Assembly (NCBI RefSeq): GCF_004345825.1
Contig: NZ_SLXM01000003.1
Location: 62,001-126,000, forward strand
DNA length: 64,000 nucleotides
Direction: 5' to 3'
Origin: Tenacibaculum skagerrakense
GTDB lineage: Bacteria > Bacteroidota > Bacteroidia > Flavobacteriales > Flavobacteriaceae
Below, in pieces: positions 3,194 to 24,789 of the stretch. The notes beneath the pieces are model-generated. The model was not told the origin of the DNA, ran no database searches, and saw nothing but the letters and a program-made list of their open reading frames with translations. The position numbers and the translations under genes are program-made. Numbering within the stretch: the first letter of the stretch is position 1; every line of letters starts with the position of its first letter.

Positions 3194-4201
3194 CTAGTTA
3201 TTTCTTGATTTTATAAAATCTGTAATTAAATAACTTATAAATTTTCCCACTTGAGCTGTTGCCATTTTTTCATTAGAAATAGAAGGAGCTCCTTCACAAA
3301 CATGTAAATACGAAGCATTTTTATGTTTTCCAAAATAATGAACAAACTGCCTGGTTTGTTGAGGTGTAAAACCACTCGGAGTCATTGCACTACTTGGAAA
3401 ATATTGAATACAGTCTAAATCTATTTCTATACCAAATGGTTTTTCTGAAACAAAGTTTAATGCTCGTTGTAATTCACTTTTAAAAGAGGTAGTTTGATAA
3501 ACTTCTATCTCTTCGTACATGTTGTATTCTAGATTGATATTATCATGAATAAACTCAAAAATATATTGCGGAGTATAATTTTCATGCAAACCAAACATAA
3601 AATAGTGATCTAAAAAACCATTCTTTAGAGCATAAGAAAAACCATTTCCGCTATGTCTTTCCTCTAATTTTCGAAGGTCAGTATGAGCATCAAGATTTAC
3701 AACGTTTATGGCATCATTGTTTGCTTCGGATAGTCCTTTTAAATTTCCATAGGCGTTGTTGTGTCCTCCTCCAATAACAATTGGAATTTTATTAGAAGCA
3801 ATAATAAGTGCGATCCATTTAGATAGTTCAGCGTCTATTTCTTGAACAAGTTCATTACCTTTTTCTCTATCATTAGGATTAAAATTCACAACTTCATCTA
3901 AGAAATCTAAATAACCTAGAATCATAATTTCATTACCATTAATAAACTGATTTTGTTGTGTATTTAATAAAGCTTTTAAAGCAGGAATAAACGCTGTGTG
4001 TGCACCAGGATTTCCATAATTCATTTGAACACCAATATCTTCTGGGACACCAATTATTACAAACTTGGCATCAGAGTTTTGGAGTTCTTCCTCGACTTTT
4101 TTTGAATCTGTAATACACTGTACACATTCTCCTAGTTTTGTTTCTCCCTTTCTGGTAGCTACAAATTCACTAATATTTTCTTGAGAAAAAGTTTGTAACA
4201 T
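3194..4201 (-). CDS. hutG: formimidoylglutamase (arginase/ureohydrolase family)
   Basis: The product hydrolyses N-formimidoyl-L-glutamate to glutamate and formamide, the last step of one histidine-degradation branch. The 335-residue protein has the manganese-binding arginase motifs: GGGHNN (H147), DAHTD (171-175) and EIDLDCI (D261, D263). A serine- and proline-rich stretch after the last motif (SSAMTPSGFTP) is typical of ureohydrolases. It begins 3 bases after the stop of hutI, so the two are one operon. Arginase or agmatinase is the alternative by family, but pairing with imidazolonepropionase, whose product is this substrate, strongly favours HutG. It is probably a cytoplasmic enzyme. Confidence 0.9.
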   Translation of the reverse strand: MLQTFSQENISEFVATRKGETKLGECVQCITDSKKVEEELQNSDAKFVIIGVPEDIGVQMNYGNPGAHTAFIPALKALLNTQQNQFINGNEIMILGYLDFLDEVVNFNPNDREKGNELVQEIDAELSKWIALIIASNKIPIVIGGGHNNAYGNLKGLSEANNDAINVVNLDAHTDLRKLEERHSGNGFSYALKNGFLDHYFMFGLHENYTPQYIFEFIHDNINLEYNMYEEIEVYQTTSFKSELQRALNFVSEKPFGIEIDLDCIQYFPSSAMTPSGFTPQQTRQFVHYFGKHKNASYLHVCEGAPSISNEKMATAQVGKFISYLITDFIKSRNN

Positions 4202-4204
4202 AAA

Positions 4205-5440
4205 CTAAACTCGTTTTCCATTAAGATATACAGATTCAATTACATTTGAACCAAAACTATAAGGTAAAAAGCCATACGAAGGAATCTCTTTTGTAATAAA
4301 AAGATTCGCTTTTTTTCCTTTCGTAATAGAACCTACTTCGTCAGATAAATTCATGGCAAATGCTCCATTTATAGTAGCTGCATTAATAGCTTCTTCTGGA
4401 GTCATTTTCATTTTAATACAAGCCGAAGAAACAACAAAATTCATATTTCCAGAAGGAGTTGAACCAGGATTATAATCTGTTGCTAATGCTAAAGGTAATT
4501 CAGCATTTATAATATCACGAGCTGGAGTATAAGGAATGCTCAAGAAATAAGAACAGGATGGCAATGCAACAGGCATTGTATCAGAACCTTTTAAAGCTTC
4601 AATATCATCATCTGTCATAATTTCTAAATGATCTACAGATAAAGCTCCTTTTACTACACTAGCTTGTAAACCACCAATTGAGGTAAATTGATTTACATGA
4701 ATTTTAGGAACAAGTCCGTGCTTTTTTCCAGCATCAATTACTCTTTCTGTTTGCGATACAGAAAAATAACCAGTTTCACAGAAAGCATCAATAAAATCGG
4801 CCAAGTTTTCTTTGGTAATTTCTGGAAGCATTTCATTGATAATTACATCAATATAAGCATCTTTATTTTCTTTATATTCAGTAGGAAAAGCATGTGCTCC
4901 TAAGAAAGTTGCTTTAATAGGAATTTGGAAATTTTCCTTTAGCTTTTTTATAACACGAAGTATTTTTAGTTCAGCATCAACGGTTAAACCATAACCTGAT
5001 TTAATTTCAACTGCCCCAGTTCCTAATTGTATGATTTCTTTTAAACGTTTACTAGATTGCTCGTATAGTTCTTCTTCTGATGTATTTTGTAATTTTTTAG
5101 CTGAATTTAAAATTCCTCCACCACGATTAGCAATTTCTTCATACGTTAAACCATTAATTCTATCAACAAATTCTTGTTCTCTATTACCAGCATAAACAAT
5201 ATGAGTGTGACTATCACACCAAGAAGGAAATACCATTTTTCCTTTACAGTCTACAATCATTGCACTTTGGTAAGATGGAATCTCTTCCATAGAACCATAA
5301 TTGATAATTCGTTCTTTTTCAATAGCTAAAAAGGCATTTTTTATAGTAGGTAACTCAGCCATTTCTTTGCCTGAAACCTTTTTTACATTTTTATCTCTAA
5401 CTTGAACTAATTCCTTGATATTAATCAATATTGTTACCAT
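4205..5440 (-). CDS. hutI: imidazolonepropionase
   Basis: HutI opens the ring of 4-imidazolone-5-propanoate to give N-formimidoyl-L-glutamate, the third step of histidine breakdown. At 411 residues it has the usual length of this amidohydrolase-superfamily enzyme. The metal-binding motif SHTHIVYAGNR places H78 and H80. EIKSGYGL, FLGAHAFP and LATDYNPGSTPSGN are family hallmarks. The ATG lies about 20 bases after the predicted start of transcription from a TAAGTTTG box. hutG follows after 3 bases. hutH and hutU are not nearby and must lie elsewhere if the pathway is complete. Confidence 0.95.
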   Translation of the reverse strand: MVTILINIKELVQVRDKNVKKVSGKEMAELPTIKNAFLAIEKERIINYGSMEEIPSYQSAMIVDCKGKMVFPSWCDSHTHIVYAGNREQEFVDRINGLTYEEIANRGGGILNSAKKLQNTSEEELYEQSSKRLKEIIQLGTGAVEIKSGYGLTVDAELKILRVIKKLKENFQIPIKATFLGAHAFPTEYKENKDAYIDVIINEMLPEITKENLADFIDAFCETGYFSVSQTERVIDAGKKHGLVPKIHVNQFTSIGGLQASVVKGALSVDHLEIMTDDDIEALKGSDTMPVALPSCSYFLSIPYTPARDIINAELPLALATDYNPGSTPSGNMNFVVSSACIKMKMTPEEAINAATINGAFAMNLSDEVGSITKGKKANLFITKEIPSYGFLPYSFGSNVIESVYLNGKRV

Positions 5441-5493: not shown

Positions 5494-5919
5494 ATGGTAT
5501 TTTTTCTAGGGATTACATGCGGAATTATTTTTTTAGCGATTTCATTTCTTCATATTTACTGGGCATTTGGAGGGAACTTCGCATTAGGTGGAGTAATCCC
5601 AACTAAAACGGATGAGGTAAGAATTTTTAAAGCGCCACCGATTTTAACCTTTTTGGTTGCGGTATTTTTATTCTTTGTGGCTGTTATTTATTTACAAGCC
5701 TCAAAAGTTTTTGATTTTTCTATGTTACCGTTGTTCCTTAAACAATATGGTATCATTTTTTTCTCTTCGATTTTTATCATAAGAGCCATTGGTGATTTTA
5801 ACTATGTAGGCTTTTTTAAAAAGGTAAAAGGAACTCAGTTTGCTAAGAATGATTATAAGTATTTTTCACCTTTGTGTGTATTTCTGGGAATAGCTGGAAT
5901 TTTAATCTATTTTTTATAA
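5494..5919 (+). CDS. DUF3995 family membrane protein
   Basis: A 141-residue integral membrane protein with four predicted transmembrane segments (about 3-22, 50-70, 83-103 and 122-140). The first helix ends in LHIYWAFGG, the hallmark of the DUF3995 family. GVIPTK and IRAIGDFNYVGFFKK are further family-like segments. No biochemical role is established for this family. It is divergent from hutI with overlapping promoters but no obvious functional link. The ATG lies about 29 bases after the predicted transcription start. Confidence 0.8.
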   Translation: MVFFLGITCGIIFLAISFLHIYWAFGGNFALGGVIPTKTDEVRIFKAPPILTFLVAVFLFFVAVIYLQASKVFDFSMLPLFLKQYGIIFFSSIFIIRAIGDFNYVGFFKKVKGTQFAKNDYKYFSPLCVFLGIAGILIYFL

Positions 5920-20015: not shown

Positions 20016-20930
20016 TTAAAGTTTAAATTTTAATGTTACAGCATAAAAAGATTGTTCTTCGAAATTTATAGAGGGGTTTTCTCCATTAACATAATCAATC
20101 CCAATTTTAGCCGATTTTTTTTCATCATCACTAATGTAAAACAGATAATTGAAACTAGTGGAAAAATAGTTATGACTTATTTTTTCTAAGTTCGTAACAT
20201 TTTCTACTAAATTATAGCGATACTGCCAATCGAAATTTATTTCAAATTTATTCTTAATTTTATCATTATTAGGAAAAAGAGAAAAATTACTATTGATTCT
20301 TAAGTAAGCTCTGTAAATATTTCCTTTATCATTATTAGATTCAGTAGATATTCTATTTTCGTTTTCTAATCCAATATATGGAGACCATAAGAATTTAGTT
20401 AAATTACCAAATTTTACAGTATTATTAGGGATCCAAAAAGTTCTAGCTTTCATACCTGTTCCTCGTGCAATAAAAGTAATATAGTAATTCCCTTGAAAAG
20501 ATGTTATATCTTTTATATTATCATTATTGTATTTTACAGATGAAATTAAAATAGGAGTCCAGCTATTGTCGGAATTTAATGAGATATCATGAATTTGTAT
20601 CTCTAAAGCTAAGCCGGCTAACCAATTATCTTGTTCCTTCTCTATTAATGTATTCAAGTGGTATTCAAAATAAGGAGATAATGTTAATACTTTGTTGTGT
20701 TTATTTTCTTTAAGTATATTGAAACCTATAGCGGCGTTCAATAACCATGAGTCCACTTTGTTTTTCGGTTTGGTGTAAGTGATTTGAGCTGGTTCAGCAT
20801 TTGAGTTTTTACTTTCAAAAGATTTTCTTAATGTTATTTTTTCCCAGAAGTTACTAGAGTCATTATTTATTTGCTGTGAATATATTTTCAATGACATTAT
20901 GAATAAAAAAATAAAATATTTGATTCTCAT
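20016..20930 (-). CDS. probable outer-membrane beta-barrel protein, unknown function
   Basis: The 304-residue product has a signal peptide (MRIKYFIFLFIMSLKIYSQ). The mature part alternates polar and hydrophobic residues in many short strands (WLLNAAIGFNIL, FEINFDWQYRYNLV, YFSTSFNYLFYI). It ends in FYAVTLKFKL, an aromatic-rich final strand with a beta-barrel-like signature. I recognise no named family. Its ATG overlaps the stop of the upstream carrier-like gene by 4 bases, so the two are translationally coupled. It is the last gene of the operon starting at 21707, which is probably controlled by the neighbouring response regulator. Confidence 0.65.
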   Translation of the reverse strand: MRIKYFIFLFIMSLKIYSQQINNDSSNFWEKITLRKSFESKNSNAEPAQITYTKPKNKVDSWLLNAAIGFNILKENKHNKVLTLSPYFEYHLNTLIEKEQDNWLAGLALEIQIHDISLNSDNSWTPILISSVKYNNDNIKDITSFQGNYYITFIARGTGMKARTFWIPNNTVKFGNLTKFLWSPYIGLENENRISTESNNDKGNIYRAYLRINSNFSLFPNNDKIKNKFEINFDWQYRYNLVENVTNLEKISHNYFSTSFNYLFYISDDEKKSAKIGIDYVNGENPSINFEEQSFYAVTLKFKL

Positions 20931-21304
20931 GATTTAGATTTTATTAAATTGATGCAGTTGATTACTGTTACTAAACTAGCACACTCACTCACAGTAATTA
21001 TGCCTGAGGAGTTAAAATTCCATACAATTCTTTGAAAAGGTATTTTTAAAGCTTTTTTGTGATATATTCTTAAACCTAAATCATCTTTTAAACTTTGACT
21101 TTCTTTGATATCTTGGATTTCAAATCCACTTAAACTTGATAGTTCTTCAAAGACTTTTCTTTTTACAAAATCATCTAAATTATTTCTTTCTGTAGATAAT
21201 TGAATTTGATTGCTTAGATTTTGTGAATTACTTTGATCATTGATAAAGTTCTTGAGTTGTAGTAGCTCTGACTCATTTAAAAATAGAGTGATTTTTTGAT
21301 TCAT
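20927..21304 (-). CDS. acyl-carrier-protein-like polypeptide without the pantetheine serine
   Basis: A 125-residue soluble protein of no recognised family. Its C-terminal 80 residues resemble the ACP fold by eye: a first helix (DDFVKRKVFEELSSLSGF), an IQDIKESQSLKDDLG segment like the ACP loop before helix II, and a late SECASLVTVINCINLI like the last ACP helix. The DSL motif that carries phosphopantetheine is absent (the segment reads LGLRIYHKKA). If the resemblance is real, the protein cannot be a conventional carrier. The N-terminal 45 residues look helical and polar. It starts 4 bases after the membrane protein gene and overlaps the next gene by 4 bases. Confidence 0.55.
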   Translation of the reverse strand: MNQKITLFLNESELLQLKNFINDQSNSQNLSNQIQLSTERNNLDDFVKRKVFEELSSLSGFEIQDIKESQSLKDDLGLRIYHKKALKIPFQRIVWNFNSSGIITVSECASLVTVINCINLIKSKS

Positions 21305-21308
21305 AATA

Positions 21309-21707
21309 TTAATATTTATTTAAATAATCTAATGGTTTAAATTCTTTTGTGTTATTAAAGGTTTTTATTTGTATGTTATCTGAATGTTCTTCTGTTATAC
21401 TATCAGCGCTATTAAATAAGTTAGTAACGACTTTTAATAGACTTTTGATAATTATTGGATAAAACATTCCGGTTAGAAATAGCTTCGTATTTGTGGTTAT
21501 AGCATCAATTTTTATAAAATCGACAATGTAATTTGAGGTAATTCCAAAAAAGAGTATTGAAACTATGGTAATAATCCAGTAGATTTTAGAGTTAAAAACT
21601 TTAACATTATTTCCTAAACTTCTACTTAAATTAAACCAGTGCAGAACTTCTTGTCCTAGTGCACCAAGAAAACTTGGAATGAAGAGTTGTAAACTGATTA
21701 AAAACAT
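21309..21707 (-). CDS. small inner-membrane protein, unknown function
   Basis: The 132-residue product has about three hydrophobic segments (2-20, 42-60 and 75-93) and a polar C-terminal tail of about 35 residues. The first segment contains PSFLGALGQEVLHW, a mid-membrane glycine/glutamate/histidine pattern that may be functional. No family is recognised. It is the first gene of a three-gene operon with the carrier-like and beta-barrel genes. A TACTTTTG box at 21736 and an upstream inverted repeat suggest activator-dependent expression. Confidence 0.65.
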   Translation of the reverse strand: MFLISLQLFIPSFLGALGQEVLHWFNLSRSLGNNVKVFNSKIYWIITIVSILFFGITSNYIVDFIKIDAITTNTKLFLTGMFYPIIIKSLLKVVTNLFNSADSITEEHSDNIQIKTFNNTKEFKPLDYLNKY

Positions 21708-21735: not shown

Positions 21736-21782
21736 CAAAAGTATGTTTAAAAGGAAGTGTTTTTTCTACCTACAAATAGGTA
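21736..21782 (-). promoter_or_regulatory. promoter and operator of the 21707-20016 operon
   Basis: The -7 box TACTTTTG is at 21736-21743 on the minus strand. The inverted repeat TACCTACAAATAGGTA is at 21767-21782, ending 23 bases upstream of the box. There is no -33 TTG. The repeat can be read as NarL-like heptamers in a 7-2-7 layout (TACCTAT on one strand). The same arrangement occurs at 24743-24789 and, degenerate, at 22446-22491. Confidence 0.65.
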
Positions 21783-21785
21783 AAA

Positions 21786-22427
21786 TTAAAACTGATATTT
21801 CTTATCAATAGCGTATTTAACTAGTTCGTTACCGTTTTTTAAATCGAGTTTACGAATCATGTTTTTTCGATGTGTGTCAACTGTAGTTTTTGCAATAAAT
21901 AAGGCTTCAGCTATTTCTTTTGAAGTTTTTCCATTAGCAATTAAATTCAGTATTTCTTTTTCTCTATTGGATAGTAGTACTTTTTCTGACTTTCCTACAG
22001 TAACATTAGTATCTATATAATCATTCATAAAATTAAAAGCAACGTTAGGATCAAAAAAAGTCTCACCTTGCGCAACGGTAACAATAGCTTTAGAGAGCAT
22101 TTTAATACCTGAGTTTTTCAATAAATAACCAGAGGCACCAGCATCTAACATTTGTTTTATAGCATCAGGTTGGTCAAACATTGTTAGTGCGAGAACACGA
22201 ATATGAGGAAGTCTAGTTTTTATGATTTTAGTAGCTTCAATACCATCCATTTTTGGCATACGGATATCAGTAATAACCAATTTAGGTTGTTTTAACAAAA
22301 CCAACTTAACCAAGTCTTCACCATTATTTACAGTACCTATAATGTTTACAGTTTCATCATATTCAAAAAAAGATTTAACACCATCAATTAGCATTTGATG
22401 ATCTTCAGCCATGATTATTGTTATCAT
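21786..22427 (-). CDS. NarL/LuxR-type response regulator
   Basis: The 213-residue regulator has a receiver domain (about 1-120) with E8, D9, the phospho-acceptor D54 (LVITDIRMPKMDG) and a conserved Lys near 104. The LuxR-type helix-turn-helix (about 148-210) contains LSNREKEILNLIANGKTSKEIA and VDTHRKNMIRKL in pieces. The partner is the HisKA_3 kinase immediately upstream. I chose ATG 22427 (MITIIMAEDHQ). The longer frame would begin with TTG at 22448, which lies inside the -7 box TATATTTG. A degenerate copy of the operator upstream suggests autoregulation. Confidence 0.92.
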   Translation of the reverse strand: MITIIMAEDHQMLIDGVKSFFEYDETVNIIGTVNNGEDLVKLVLLKQPKLVITDIRMPKMDGIEATKIIKTRLPHIRVLALTMFDQPDAIKQMLDAGASGYLLKNSGIKMLSKAIVTVAQGETFFDPNVAFNFMNDYIDTNVTVGKSEKVLLSNREKEILNLIANGKTSKEIAEALFIAKTTVDTHRKNMIRKLDLKNGNELVKYAIDKKYQF

Positions 22428-22445
22428 AATTAATTGGTCTTTACT

Positions 22446-22491
22446 CAAATATAGGAAATAACGTTTCCTAATTTATACTCATAATTAGGTA
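22446..22491 (-). promoter_or_regulatory. promoter and degenerate operator of the response regulator gene
   Basis: TATATTTG at 22446-22453 is a perfect -7 box. TACTCATAATTAGGTA at 22476-22491 ends 22 bases upstream and directly abuts the stop codon of the kinase gene. One half, TAGGTA, is identical to the other two sites and the other half differs at two positions. The half TACTCAT fits the NarL heptamer TACYNMT. Confidence 0.55.
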
Positions 22492-24189
22492 TTATAAAGG
22501 GATATTAATAATTATTGAGGTGCCTCTTTTTATAGCAGAATCAATCTGAAAATTTCCGTGTAAATATTCAACCCTTTTTTTAATAGAACCTAATCCCATT
22601 CCATTATTGTAAGGAATTATACTTGGATTAAAACCTTTGCCATTATCTTCAATAATAATGTTTAAGTTATCATCAAAGTGAGAAATATTGATAGTAGCTT
22701 CTGATGCTTCAGCATGTTTTATAATGTTCGTTATGAGTTCTTGAATAATTCTAAAGATTGTTATTTCTGTATTTGAATCCAATCTTCTATCCAAACCAAA
22801 ATCTACAATTTCAATGTTTAATTGATTGGCAGATGAAATTTTTTCAGCCATCATTTTAATAGCAACTAGTAAGCCTTGATTAGCAATAACACCAGCATTT
22901 TTTGCATGAGCAATACTGCGAACTTTTAAATAGGTTTCATCAATTAATTTTTCAGTTTTATTATACAGTTCTTCTTGGTTGAAGTGTTTTTTCTCTCTGT
23001 TAAGTTTTAAATTTTCAAAATGTAATTTTAAAGTGGCAAGAACACTTCCAATATTATCGTGTAAATCTTCTGCAATTCGTATACGTTCTTTTTCTTGACC
23101 TTCAACCATTGCATTTATAGTTGTGATTTCTTGTTCTTTTAATAGCGTTAAATTTTTCTGTTTTTCAAGTTCTTTTTGCTGTTCTGCTAATAAACGTTTT
23201 TTTCGAGAGTTTTTGAGGTTTAGATAAGCAATAGTTCCACCGAAAAATAAAAGTATTAAAGAACCAAAAAGGAAGTTTTGCGTTTGTTTTCTTTTTTGTT
23301 CGGTTAGTAGATTTTTTTGTCGAAGTTCTAAGTTCTCTTTGTCTTTTTCAGCTACTTTATATTTTTCGTCTAATTCTTTAATAGCTTTATTCTGATTAAA
23401 AACATCTAAACTGTCTTTATAAGTAATGTATTTAGATTGATATTGAAAAGCTTTTTTATAGTCTTGTAACCTTTGATAACATTCTGAAAATTTTCTATAA
23501 ATAATTTTTTTATATTTCAATTTCCCTTCATTTAAAATCAATTGATCTGTTTTTTTTAAAAGTTCTATGGCTTTTGTAAATTTTGATTGATTTTGATAAA
23601 GATTAATTAAGTTGATATAAACACTAGCAATTTTATTTGTGTTTTCTTTTGGAATAATATTTAAAGCTTTATTTAAATAAACATTGGCAGAGTCCTGGTA
23701 CTTTTTAGAATATAGTAGCCCTAAATTGATAAATACATTTGATTTGTAATCAGGTCTTTTGATTTTAGTTGTAAGATAGATGGATTTATGAAAATATGAG
23801 GCCGACTTTTCTGGAGAATTTTGATTAAAAAAATAAACTCCAAACCGATTGTTCAATCCAATTAATAATAATTTGTCTTTAGTGCTAATTTCTTCGTTTT
23901 CTGTTAAGTAATGTAGCCTATCTTTATTTAGATTTTCTTGCCAACCTACAATATCAAATAATTTTAAATTACATAGAAATATACTATCATTATCTTTTAA
24001 AACTTTATATCCATCTTTGGCTTTCTTCATTAAAAAATAAGCAGAGTCAGTTTTGTTTAAGTTTCCAAAATGAATAGCAGATTTATAATAATAACTAGTA
24101 GGCTTTTCTTTTTGAGCATACATAAAACTACAAACCATTAAAAGCATGATTTGTAGAATATTTTGAGTGATTTTTTTTGATAAAGTCAT
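22492..24189 (-). CDS. TPR-containing sensor histidine kinase (HisKA_3 type)
   Basis: The 565-residue kinase has a signal peptide (ending SFMYAQ), then a periplasmic region of tetratricopeptide-like helices (about 28-240). A coiled coil is followed by one membrane helix near 297-318 (FLFGSLILLFFGGTIAYL) and another coiled coil. The HisKA_3 dimerisation helix has the phospho-His H377 (RIAEDLHDNIGSVLATLK). The HATPase domain shows IIQELITNIIKHAEAS and EDNGKGFNPS. This layout is common in Bacteroidetes NarL-type systems, where the TPR region senses a periplasmic protein or peptide. The gene starts 5 bases after the 173-residue unknown protein and precedes its response regulator. Confidence 0.93.
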   Translation of the reverse strand: MTLSKKITQNILQIMLLMVCSFMYAQKEKPTSYYYKSAIHFGNLNKTDSAYFLMKKAKDGYKVLKDNDSIFLCNLKLFDIVGWQENLNKDRLHYLTENEEISTKDKLLLIGLNNRFGVYFFNQNSPEKSASYFHKSIYLTTKIKRPDYKSNVFINLGLLYSKKYQDSANVYLNKALNIIPKENTNKIASVYINLINLYQNQSKFTKAIELLKKTDQLILNEGKLKYKKIIYRKFSECYQRLQDYKKAFQYQSKYITYKDSLDVFNQNKAIKELDEKYKVAEKDKENLELRQKNLLTEQKRKQTQNFLFGSLILLFFGGTIAYLNLKNSRKKRLLAEQQKELEKQKNLTLLKEQEITTINAMVEGQEKERIRIAEDLHDNIGSVLATLKLHFENLKLNREKKHFNQEELYNKTEKLIDETYLKVRSIAHAKNAGVIANQGLLVAIKMMAEKISSANQLNIEIVDFGLDRRLDSNTEITIFRIIQELITNIIKHAEASEATINISHFDDNLNIIIEDNGKGFNPSIIPYNNGMGLGSIKKRVEYLHGNFQIDSAIKRGTSIIINIPL

Positions 24190-24194
24190 TAGTT

Positions 24195-24716
24195 TTAAGG
24201 ACCAGTAACAATTACTCCACCTCCAGCTTCTTCTGGTTTTATTATTAACAATTCAGATAGCTTATCAATTTTATTGTCTAATATTTTACTAGAACATAAA
24301 TCTTTATCATCGTTTAACGTTATAACTAAAAGAGATTCATGATTTTTAATGTCGAATTTTATCGGTTGACAGGTTTCTAGATCATATATTTCATCAAATA
24401 AAATTTTACCATCTAGAAAAAAATTTATGTCTAAACCTAATGTAGAAGCAGCAGTTGGCTCAGAAATATGTATTAGTAAAATTCTTAAATTACTAACATT
24501 TATTCCTATTTCTAAAAAAATATCGCTCGAAACCTCATAGACTTTTTGAATTTCGAAATCTTTTTTAGGACAAGGTATTTTAACACTAACATATTTTTTT
24601 GAAGGGTTAAAGTAACTTTCTTTTAATAGAACATTAAAATTTTTTTTGTGCAAACTAGAGTAACCATTTCCAGGTTTACCTGGTTTACAAATTGGCCAAT
24701 TTGGATTTTTTTTCAT
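24195..24716 (-). CDS. protein of unknown function encoded with the two-component system
   Basis: The 173-residue product has no recognised family and no signal peptide. It opens with a Pro/Gly-rich segment (NPNWPICKPGKPGNGYSS), continues as a likely beta-rich domain (YVSVKIPCPKKDF, LRILLIHISEP, LLVITLNDDKD), and ends in an unusual glycine-rich tail, EEAGGGVIVTGP. Four cysteines are present (C10, then PCP, TCQ and LCSS). It is the first gene of the operon with the kinase, 5 bases upstream of it. It has a promoter with the shared inverted repeat, so it is likely part of the same regulatory circuit, either as a target or as a modulator. Confidence 0.6.
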   Translation of the reverse strand: MKKNPNWPICKPGKPGNGYSSLHKKNFNVLLKESYFNPSKKYVSVKIPCPKKDFEIQKVYEVSSDIFLEIGINVSNLRILLIHISEPTAASTLGLDINFFLDGKILFDEIYDLETCQPIKFDIKNHESLLVITLNDDKDLCSSKILDNKIDKLSELLIIKPEEAGGGVIVTGP

Positions 24717-24742
24717 TACAAATATATATTGATTAGTAGTTT

Positions 24743-24789
24743 CAAATATCTGAACTACATAGATAAATAAATATACCTACTAATAGGTA
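24743..24789 (-). promoter_or_regulatory. promoter and operator of the 24716-22492 operon
   Basis: GATATTTG at 24743-24750 (7 of 8 bases of TAnnTTTG) is preceded by the inverted repeat TACCTACTAATAGGTA at 24774-24789, again 23 bases upstream of the box. No -33 TTG is present. The arms TACCTA and TAGGTA are identical to those at 21767-21782. A perfect TATATTTG at 24719-24726 is too close to the ATG to serve as the promoter. Confidence 0.6.

Follow-up and report, generated by a model that had tools for sequence, protein, structure and literature searches.

The 64,000-nucleotide stretch of Tenacibaculum skagerrakense DNA analysed here (assembly GCF_004345825.1, contig NZ_SLXM01000003.1, positions 62,001 to 126,000; hereafter the window) carries three copies of a 16-bp palindrome, each placed ahead of a promoter-like -7 box and of one transcription unit of a two-component regulatory locus, which the initial annotation had taken for the operators of a local NarL-type regulon. 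All features of the window described below lie on the minus strand and are listed in the direction of transcription. A perfect palindrome, TACCTATTAGTAGGTA (24774-24789), is the candidate operator of the cassette/kinase operon, together with the -7 box GATATTTG (24743-24750), which departs at one position from TAnnTTTG. The operon encodes a cassette or partner protein of 173 amino acids (24195-24716), assigned to partner class 1, with the C-terminal tail PEEAGGGVIVTGP and a beta-rich structural model ending in a C-terminal strand, and a TPR sensor histidine kinase of 565 amino acids (22492-24189) with TPR_12, HisKA_3 and HATPase_c domains and hydrophobic segments at residues 7-23 and about 305-325. 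A degenerate palindrome, TACCTAATTATGAGTA (22476-22491), with the -7 box TATATTTG (22446-22453), is the candidate operator of a NarL/LuxR-type response regulator gene (21786-22427; 213 amino acids from the ATG; Response_reg plus GerE), and a second perfect palindrome, TACCTATTTGTAGGTA (21767-21782), with the -7 box TACTTTTG (21736-21743), is that of the downstream operon. The latter comprises genes for a membrane-like protein of 132 amino acids (21309-21707), whose relatives stand at the same place in loci L040 and L110, for a 125-amino-acid protein with no family assigned (20927-21304), which has a 50% identical relative behind its own palindrome in L154, and for a 304-amino-acid protein with a signal-like N-terminus (20016-20930), the last of the operon. 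The positions first assigned to the three palindromes were borne out, and the proposed palindrome-to-box distance of 22-23 bases was measured as 23, 22 and 23 bases at the 24774, 22476 and 21767 sites, respectively; the label "carrier-like" for the 125-amino-acid protein found no support in a family search.

The three-site pattern is a correct observation and is beyond chance. The window had two perfect palindromes, whereas 100 dinucleotide shuffles gave none; the combination of palindrome, 22-23-base spacing and -7 box was present three times, again against none in 100 shuffles. By itself, the palindrome with up to 3 mismatches was not enriched in the window (24 found vs 31.6 expected); it was therefore rejected as evidence at that tolerance, and the degenerate copy at 22476-22491 counts only together with its box and spacing. 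Across the organism's own genome (3,708,577 bases) there were three perfect copies, against one for the backward control, and all three carried a -7 box at 22 or 23 bases, so that the repeat is not equally common elsewhere without a box. The third copy (C5:239776-239821) lies ahead of a gene for a 171-amino-acid protein. In five other species (L040, L114, L119, L121 and L135) a homologous gene, whose promoter has a palindrome of its own, stands between those for kinase and regulator, with 40-46% identity at the protein level (E at most 1e-36, rounded); a protein encoded behind a palindrome in L176 is 63% identical. When 2 mismatches were allowed, the regulator's own promoter emerged as a fourth clear member; the remaining matches, for most of which the gene neighbours were read, were weaker, some were shifted readings of known sites, and the backward control gave one per strand. 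Since a further site of this kind exists elsewhere in the genome, the set is not purely local, and the description of the regulon as local was too narrow.

We then compared the window locus with 62 other loci of the genus set, in which the response regulator (75-94% identical, E<=1e-60) was present in 63 of 166 genomes, own genome included, mostly of Tenacibaculum and Polaribacter. With up to 2 mismatches allowed, 60 of 61 loci had the palindrome at the cassette promoter, 48 of them in perfect form; L037 and L045 are not counted, since the ZIP gene does not appear in the stretches compared. The regulator promoter had it in 46 of 63 loci and the downstream operon in 16 of 26, these 26 being the loci in which a gene on the same strand lies no more than 420 bases downstream. 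For 100 permuted half-sites, the mean count was 1.39 (maximum, 10) at the cassette position, 0.81 (7) at the regulator position and 0.12 (3) at the downstream position. A box with at most one mismatch followed at 22 or 23 bases in 44/60 cassette, 46/46 regulator and 16/16 downstream sites, and the 136 boxed sites had a spacing of 22 (76 sites) or 23 (60 sites). Rather than being lost upstream of orthologues, which would have spoken against the proposal, the site is conserved ahead of orthologous and even unrelated genes at the same place. Motif and box together occurred in 58 of the 63 genomes with the regulator (169 sites) vs 22 of the 103 without it (35 sites), an association test that ignores the relatedness of the genomes, and the backward control of motif plus box gave none in all 166. 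In 22 of the 63 loci a second palindrome lay exactly 24 bp away (e.g. L109, oriented positions 5582 and 5606), and of 26 palindrome pairs spaced 17-40 bp apart 23 were at 24, which suggests tandem dimers. The second palindrome of a pair was mostly upstream of the cassette operator.

The window regulator is a receiver followed by a GerE domain, both above gathering scores (Response_reg, 2.2e-23; GerE, 4.1e-20), and is not an equivalog of Escherichia coli NarL by the NCBIfam NarL model (116 bits; cut-off, 250). NarL-family regulators recognise heptamers of the consensus TACYNMT. The palindrome, written TACCTAN-NN-NTAGGTA, consists of two inverted heptamers two bases apart (7-2-7) in 16 bp, the middle window site being degenerate. 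Passages of PMC4549865 place NarL 7-2-7 sites at -40 to -49 (napF) and -38 to -47 (yeaR), similar to the placement in the window, and with a spacing conserved genus-wide the proposed 7-2-7 operator fits both in geometry and in position. Like the window system, NarL at napF and yeaR pairs a Response_reg-GerE regulator with such 16-bp inverted heptamers; unlike it, the window system has the core TACCTA/TAGGTA, a Bacteroidota -7 promoter, no nitrate link that we could see, and one constant predicted operator serving swapped sensor cassettes. Two of the window boxes match, and the third misses by one base, the -7 consensus TAnnTTTG of sigma-ABfr promoters, as cited in the consulted part of PMC7366714. 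A TTG 17-21 bases before the box, corresponding to the -33 TTTG/TTG element of these promoters, occurred in only 4 of the 136 boxed genus sites and in none of the other 132, and the lack of a -33 TTG noted for the window sites thus holds throughout the genus set. According to the same part of PMC7366714, the -33 element was also not found in Flavobacterium johnsoniae, and it may thus not be a general feature.

Whereas the operator is constant, the gene between the ZIP-type gene and the kinase varies widely, and in some loci a peptidase gene precedes the partner. In a Pfam scan of ten large cassette genes, six exceeded a peptidase cut-off (two subtilases, two trypsins, one C70 papain-like and one DUF31 protein) and four did not. 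The 83 loci compared (63 of the genus, 20 of the family) contained 80 kinase modules, 79 of them with a partner; five loci had two partner-kinase modules in tandem, and L045 also had two kinases. Single-linkage BLAST grouping (E<1e-3) of the partners of these 79 modules gave a class with a cysteine tail (33 members, all 33 with a cysteine within the last 16 residues), a class with a GGGVIVxGP tail that includes the window partner (26 members, the tail present in 22), a class of 7 and small classes. The window partner had no Pfam, PADLOC or NCBIfam match, and for partner and kinase alike PADLOC returned no family at E 0.01; a known anti-phage defence system was rejected on this ground. AlphaFold models of the window partner (predicted local distance difference test, 79.6) and of a cysteine-tail partner (82.6) are both rich in beta strands, the last of which follows a loop predicted with low confidence. 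Foldseek gave no match at E<=0.001 for either model, and the best VIA-align results (window partner: Z 5.6, root-mean-square deviation 3.5, 101 aligned residues, NigD-like protein 4pqx; class-0 partner: Z 3.8, deviation 3.2, 89 aligned) were too low to name a fold, no solved structure being clearly alike. Separately, L132 (oriented 4377-4535) and L134 (oriented 4128-4286) contain lipoprotein-like genes of 52 amino acids that consist of a signal and a tail, the tails, APESKDGSIIIGD and APETKDGSIIIGG, resembling those of some partner proteins.

Partner class followed the sensor. Since single-linkage clustering merged all 79 sensors into one cluster, nearest neighbours and trees were used instead; the class tests left out small classes and loci without a recognised kinase (L151, L247, L254, L257, L258 and L259). 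The nearest sensor domain shared the partner class in 61 of 64 modules, compared with 28 of 64 for the nearest kinase domain, 23 of 59 for the nearest regulator and 22 of 64 with shuffled labels. On quick trees of 61 loci (56 with a class; branch support not weighed), partner class changed 3 times on the sensor tree, the minimum for four classes, and 22 times on both the regulator and the kinase-domain tree, where shuffled labels gave about 24 changes and at lowest 19-20. Consistently with both measures, partner and sensor travel jointly and no longer track regulator or kinase domain: as read from the sequences, partner and TPR sensor are swapped together, kinase domain and regulator do not follow partner class, and the operator stays constant. 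The agr and ComQXPA systems of Gram-positive bacteria are peptide signalling loci with a constant regulator, operators on their own operon and a polymorphic receptor. As in these, a receptor and a neighbour gene are exchanged jointly here, sometimes with a peptidase in the cassette; in contrast to these, the partners are beta-rich proteins of ~150-240 amino acids rather than small peptides, and the hosts are Gram-negative. A polymorphic receptor co-inherited with a neighbour gene beside a constant regulator, the mark of a pheromone locus, is what we found, if the partner is the signal gene.

TPR domains sense peptides in the RRNPP regulators (Rap, PlcR), which are cytosolic and not kinases; the domain type is shared, whereas the kinase described here is predicted to be a membrane protein that uses it as its sensor. 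The NCBIfam FimS model aligns in part with the window kinase (residues 110-346; E 4.5e-13), at a score far below its cut-off (48.3 bits vs 600), and the kinase has the FimS-like layout of a TPR sensor between hydrophobic segments followed by HisKA_3 and HATPase_c. Among the 79 kinases, a hydrophobic segment precedes the kinase domain in 76 and an N-terminal one was seen in 38, start codons being uncertain. The closest studied relative that we noticed for the TPR part is FimS of Porphyromonas gingivalis (FimS-FimR), which passages of PMC11053733 describe as having a periplasmic TPR sensor for which polypeptide binding has been suggested; FimR binds promoters of fimbria genes, as stated in part of PMC1974823. 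Unlike in FimS-FimR, a partner gene co-varies with the sensor here, and the outputs are other genes.

The arrangement extends beyond the genus set. Of 299 family genomes searched, 61, all from other genera, had a relative of the regulator (E<=1e-55). In the 20 of these 61 loci that were compared, a window-like kinase always stood directly before the regulator, preceded in 18 of 20 by a gene for 125-263 amino acids (L247 has none there, and L248 is truncated at the end of its contig). The form TACCYA-N4-TRGGTA with a box gave 10 sites in 8 of these 20 loci and none for 60 permuted forms. Downstream operons vary: the 132/125/304-amino-acid set of the window recurs in L040 and partly in L110, a 1414-amino-acid LRR/Ig protein bearing a Por secretion tail is encoded in L140, the operon of L148 includes genes for a DUF6175 protein and for one just under the FlgO cut-off, and in many species an opposite-strand gene takes the place of the operon. 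These genes suggest cell-surface and secretion functions as outputs. A five-gene secretion-like operon lies downstream of the regulator in L037, L038, L047, L147 and L148, and is followed in L038, L047, L147 and L148 by a gene for 92-98 amino acids behind its own palindrome, with several cysteines by eye in L038 and L047. In L034, L108, L115, L126, L132, L134 and L143 the regulator is followed by a pair of genes for ~610 and 245 amino acids, regulator-like by eye, near which are genes for 60-75 amino acids with N-termini resembling leader peptides; no palindrome (4 or more mismatches) preceded the first gene of the pair in the six loci tested (all but L143).

Taken together, these data point to an autoregulated NarL-type regulon, which we regard as well supported at the sequence level, and the palindrome probably marks the promoters that a single conserved regulator turns on in marine flavobacteria. 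The TPR kinase would phosphorylate the response regulator, whose dimer would bind TACCTAN-NN-NTAGGTA, a site with its centre some 42 bases ahead of the start, and would there substitute for the missing -33 element. It would thereby activate three promoters (that of its own cassette/kinase operon, that of its own gene and that of the output operon), plus one distant gene, and the outcome would be a positive feedback switch. As a whole, the explanation that the local NarL-type regulator uses the palindrome as its operator, within a feedback switch fed by swapped sensor cassettes, appears likely to us. For the narrower proposal that the cassette protein, sometimes with an upstream-encoded peptidase, acts as the ligand of the sensor or as its local regulator through the conserved C-terminal tail, which is the reading of the cassette that we favour, the chances taken alone seem evenly balanced. 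Still more tentative, though worth considering, is a polymorphic protein- or peptide-ligand signalling system in Flavobacteriaceae, in which ligand, optional peptidase and TPR sensor would be swapped between species onto a fixed kinase core, regulator and operator, with pherotype-like specificity and positive feedback on surface and secretion genes.

Several observations weigh against this explanation. When the best palindrome was taken, 16 of 60 cassette sites had no box (up to one mismatch) at 22/23 bases, in part because the neighbouring copy of a tandem pair was the one chosen; no site within 2 mismatches was present at 17 of 63 regulator promoters, although eight of these had a 3-mismatch site and five an extra site-bearing gene between kinase and regulator; and the site was missing before 10 of 26 downstream genes. 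Moreover, motif and box still occur in the 22 genomes lacking this regulator, where TTG directly follows the palindrome in 17 of the 30 listed sites (of 35) vs 1 of 136 local sites, the other 13 lacking this mark. From that difference, the palindrome probably also belongs to another promoter kind, with another reader. One may go further and suppose that it is a general element of another common regulator and that the adjacent response regulator is not its reader at all, as would be allowed by the sites in regulator-free genomes and by a conserved intergenic site that adjoins an RNA methyltransferase-like gene whether or not the genome has the regulator. The motif nevertheless tracks the presence of the regulator, is tied to the regulator's own operon at up to three places and locally almost always lacks the TTG mark, which makes so general a role improbable. 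Repression instead of activation by the regulator has a precedent in NarL itself, which, in passages of PMC4549865, represses at the 7-2-7 site of frdA; that site, however, lies near the start (-4/+6), while those described here precede the -7 box at fixed spacing and have no -33 TTG, and cassette boxes often read GATATTTG and not TAnnTTTG, as might be expected of activated promoters. We consider repression very improbable. That the palindrome at 21767 forms a terminator hairpin behind the regulator gene, as its 6-bp inverted repeat 3 bases past the stop codon might suggest, is scarcely credible and was rejected: the stem is A+T-rich with no T run after it, and the same sequence recurs, equally far from a -7 box, at two other promoters, with a like site in the 16 downstream loci counted above.

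A different objection concerns the cassette proteins, which could be outputs, for instance immunity-type proteins or secreted effectors, with no contact to the sensor and no link to the kinase beyond the common operon. The window partner without a family match and the peptidases of unrelated families ahead of some partners, two of them subtilases matching the PADLOC subtilase model, would accord with such a role; the tracking of the sensor, and not of kinase domain or regulator, by partner class would not, as pure outputs would have no need to track it. We regard this alternative as rather unlikely. A further point against a ligand role is that only 5 of 26 class-1 partners had a lipoprotein-like signal by a simple pattern, so that the route of the partner to a periplasmic sensor is questionable.

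Among the 30 loci read for other sites, a recurring class adjoins the RNA methyltransferase-like gene, in genomes with and without the regulator. Ten of these loci (L158, L161, L166, L169, L170, L171, L177, L181, L182 and L183, near position 1501) have the palindrome and a -7 box at 22/23 bases, TTG directly after the palindrome in 8 of 10, and the start of the divergent methyltransferase-like gene ~12 bases off; in the 9 examined, the next downstream gene of at least 90 amino acids is on the opposite strand and more than 100 bases away. These methyltransferase-adjacent sites possibly serve a small RNA or leader under another regulator. At other, mostly TTG-type palindromes, an RNA gene was rejected, since a scan of 12 loci gave no tRNA and one of 8 loci no Rfam family.

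Among the papers listed by a search limited to open-licence publications, none was shown to name this locus type. For FimS, a TPR sensor kinase of Bacteroidota, a passage of PMC11053733 states that the signal is unknown; here the genome comparison points to a candidate ligand encoded next to the sensor in each sensor class. The 16-bp operator with its -7 box offers a ready read-out before a reporter, and the operator motif lets the regulon of these marine bacteria be mapped. Finally, the locus provides an example of sensor and partner modules swapped so often that the regulator tree is no longer followed.

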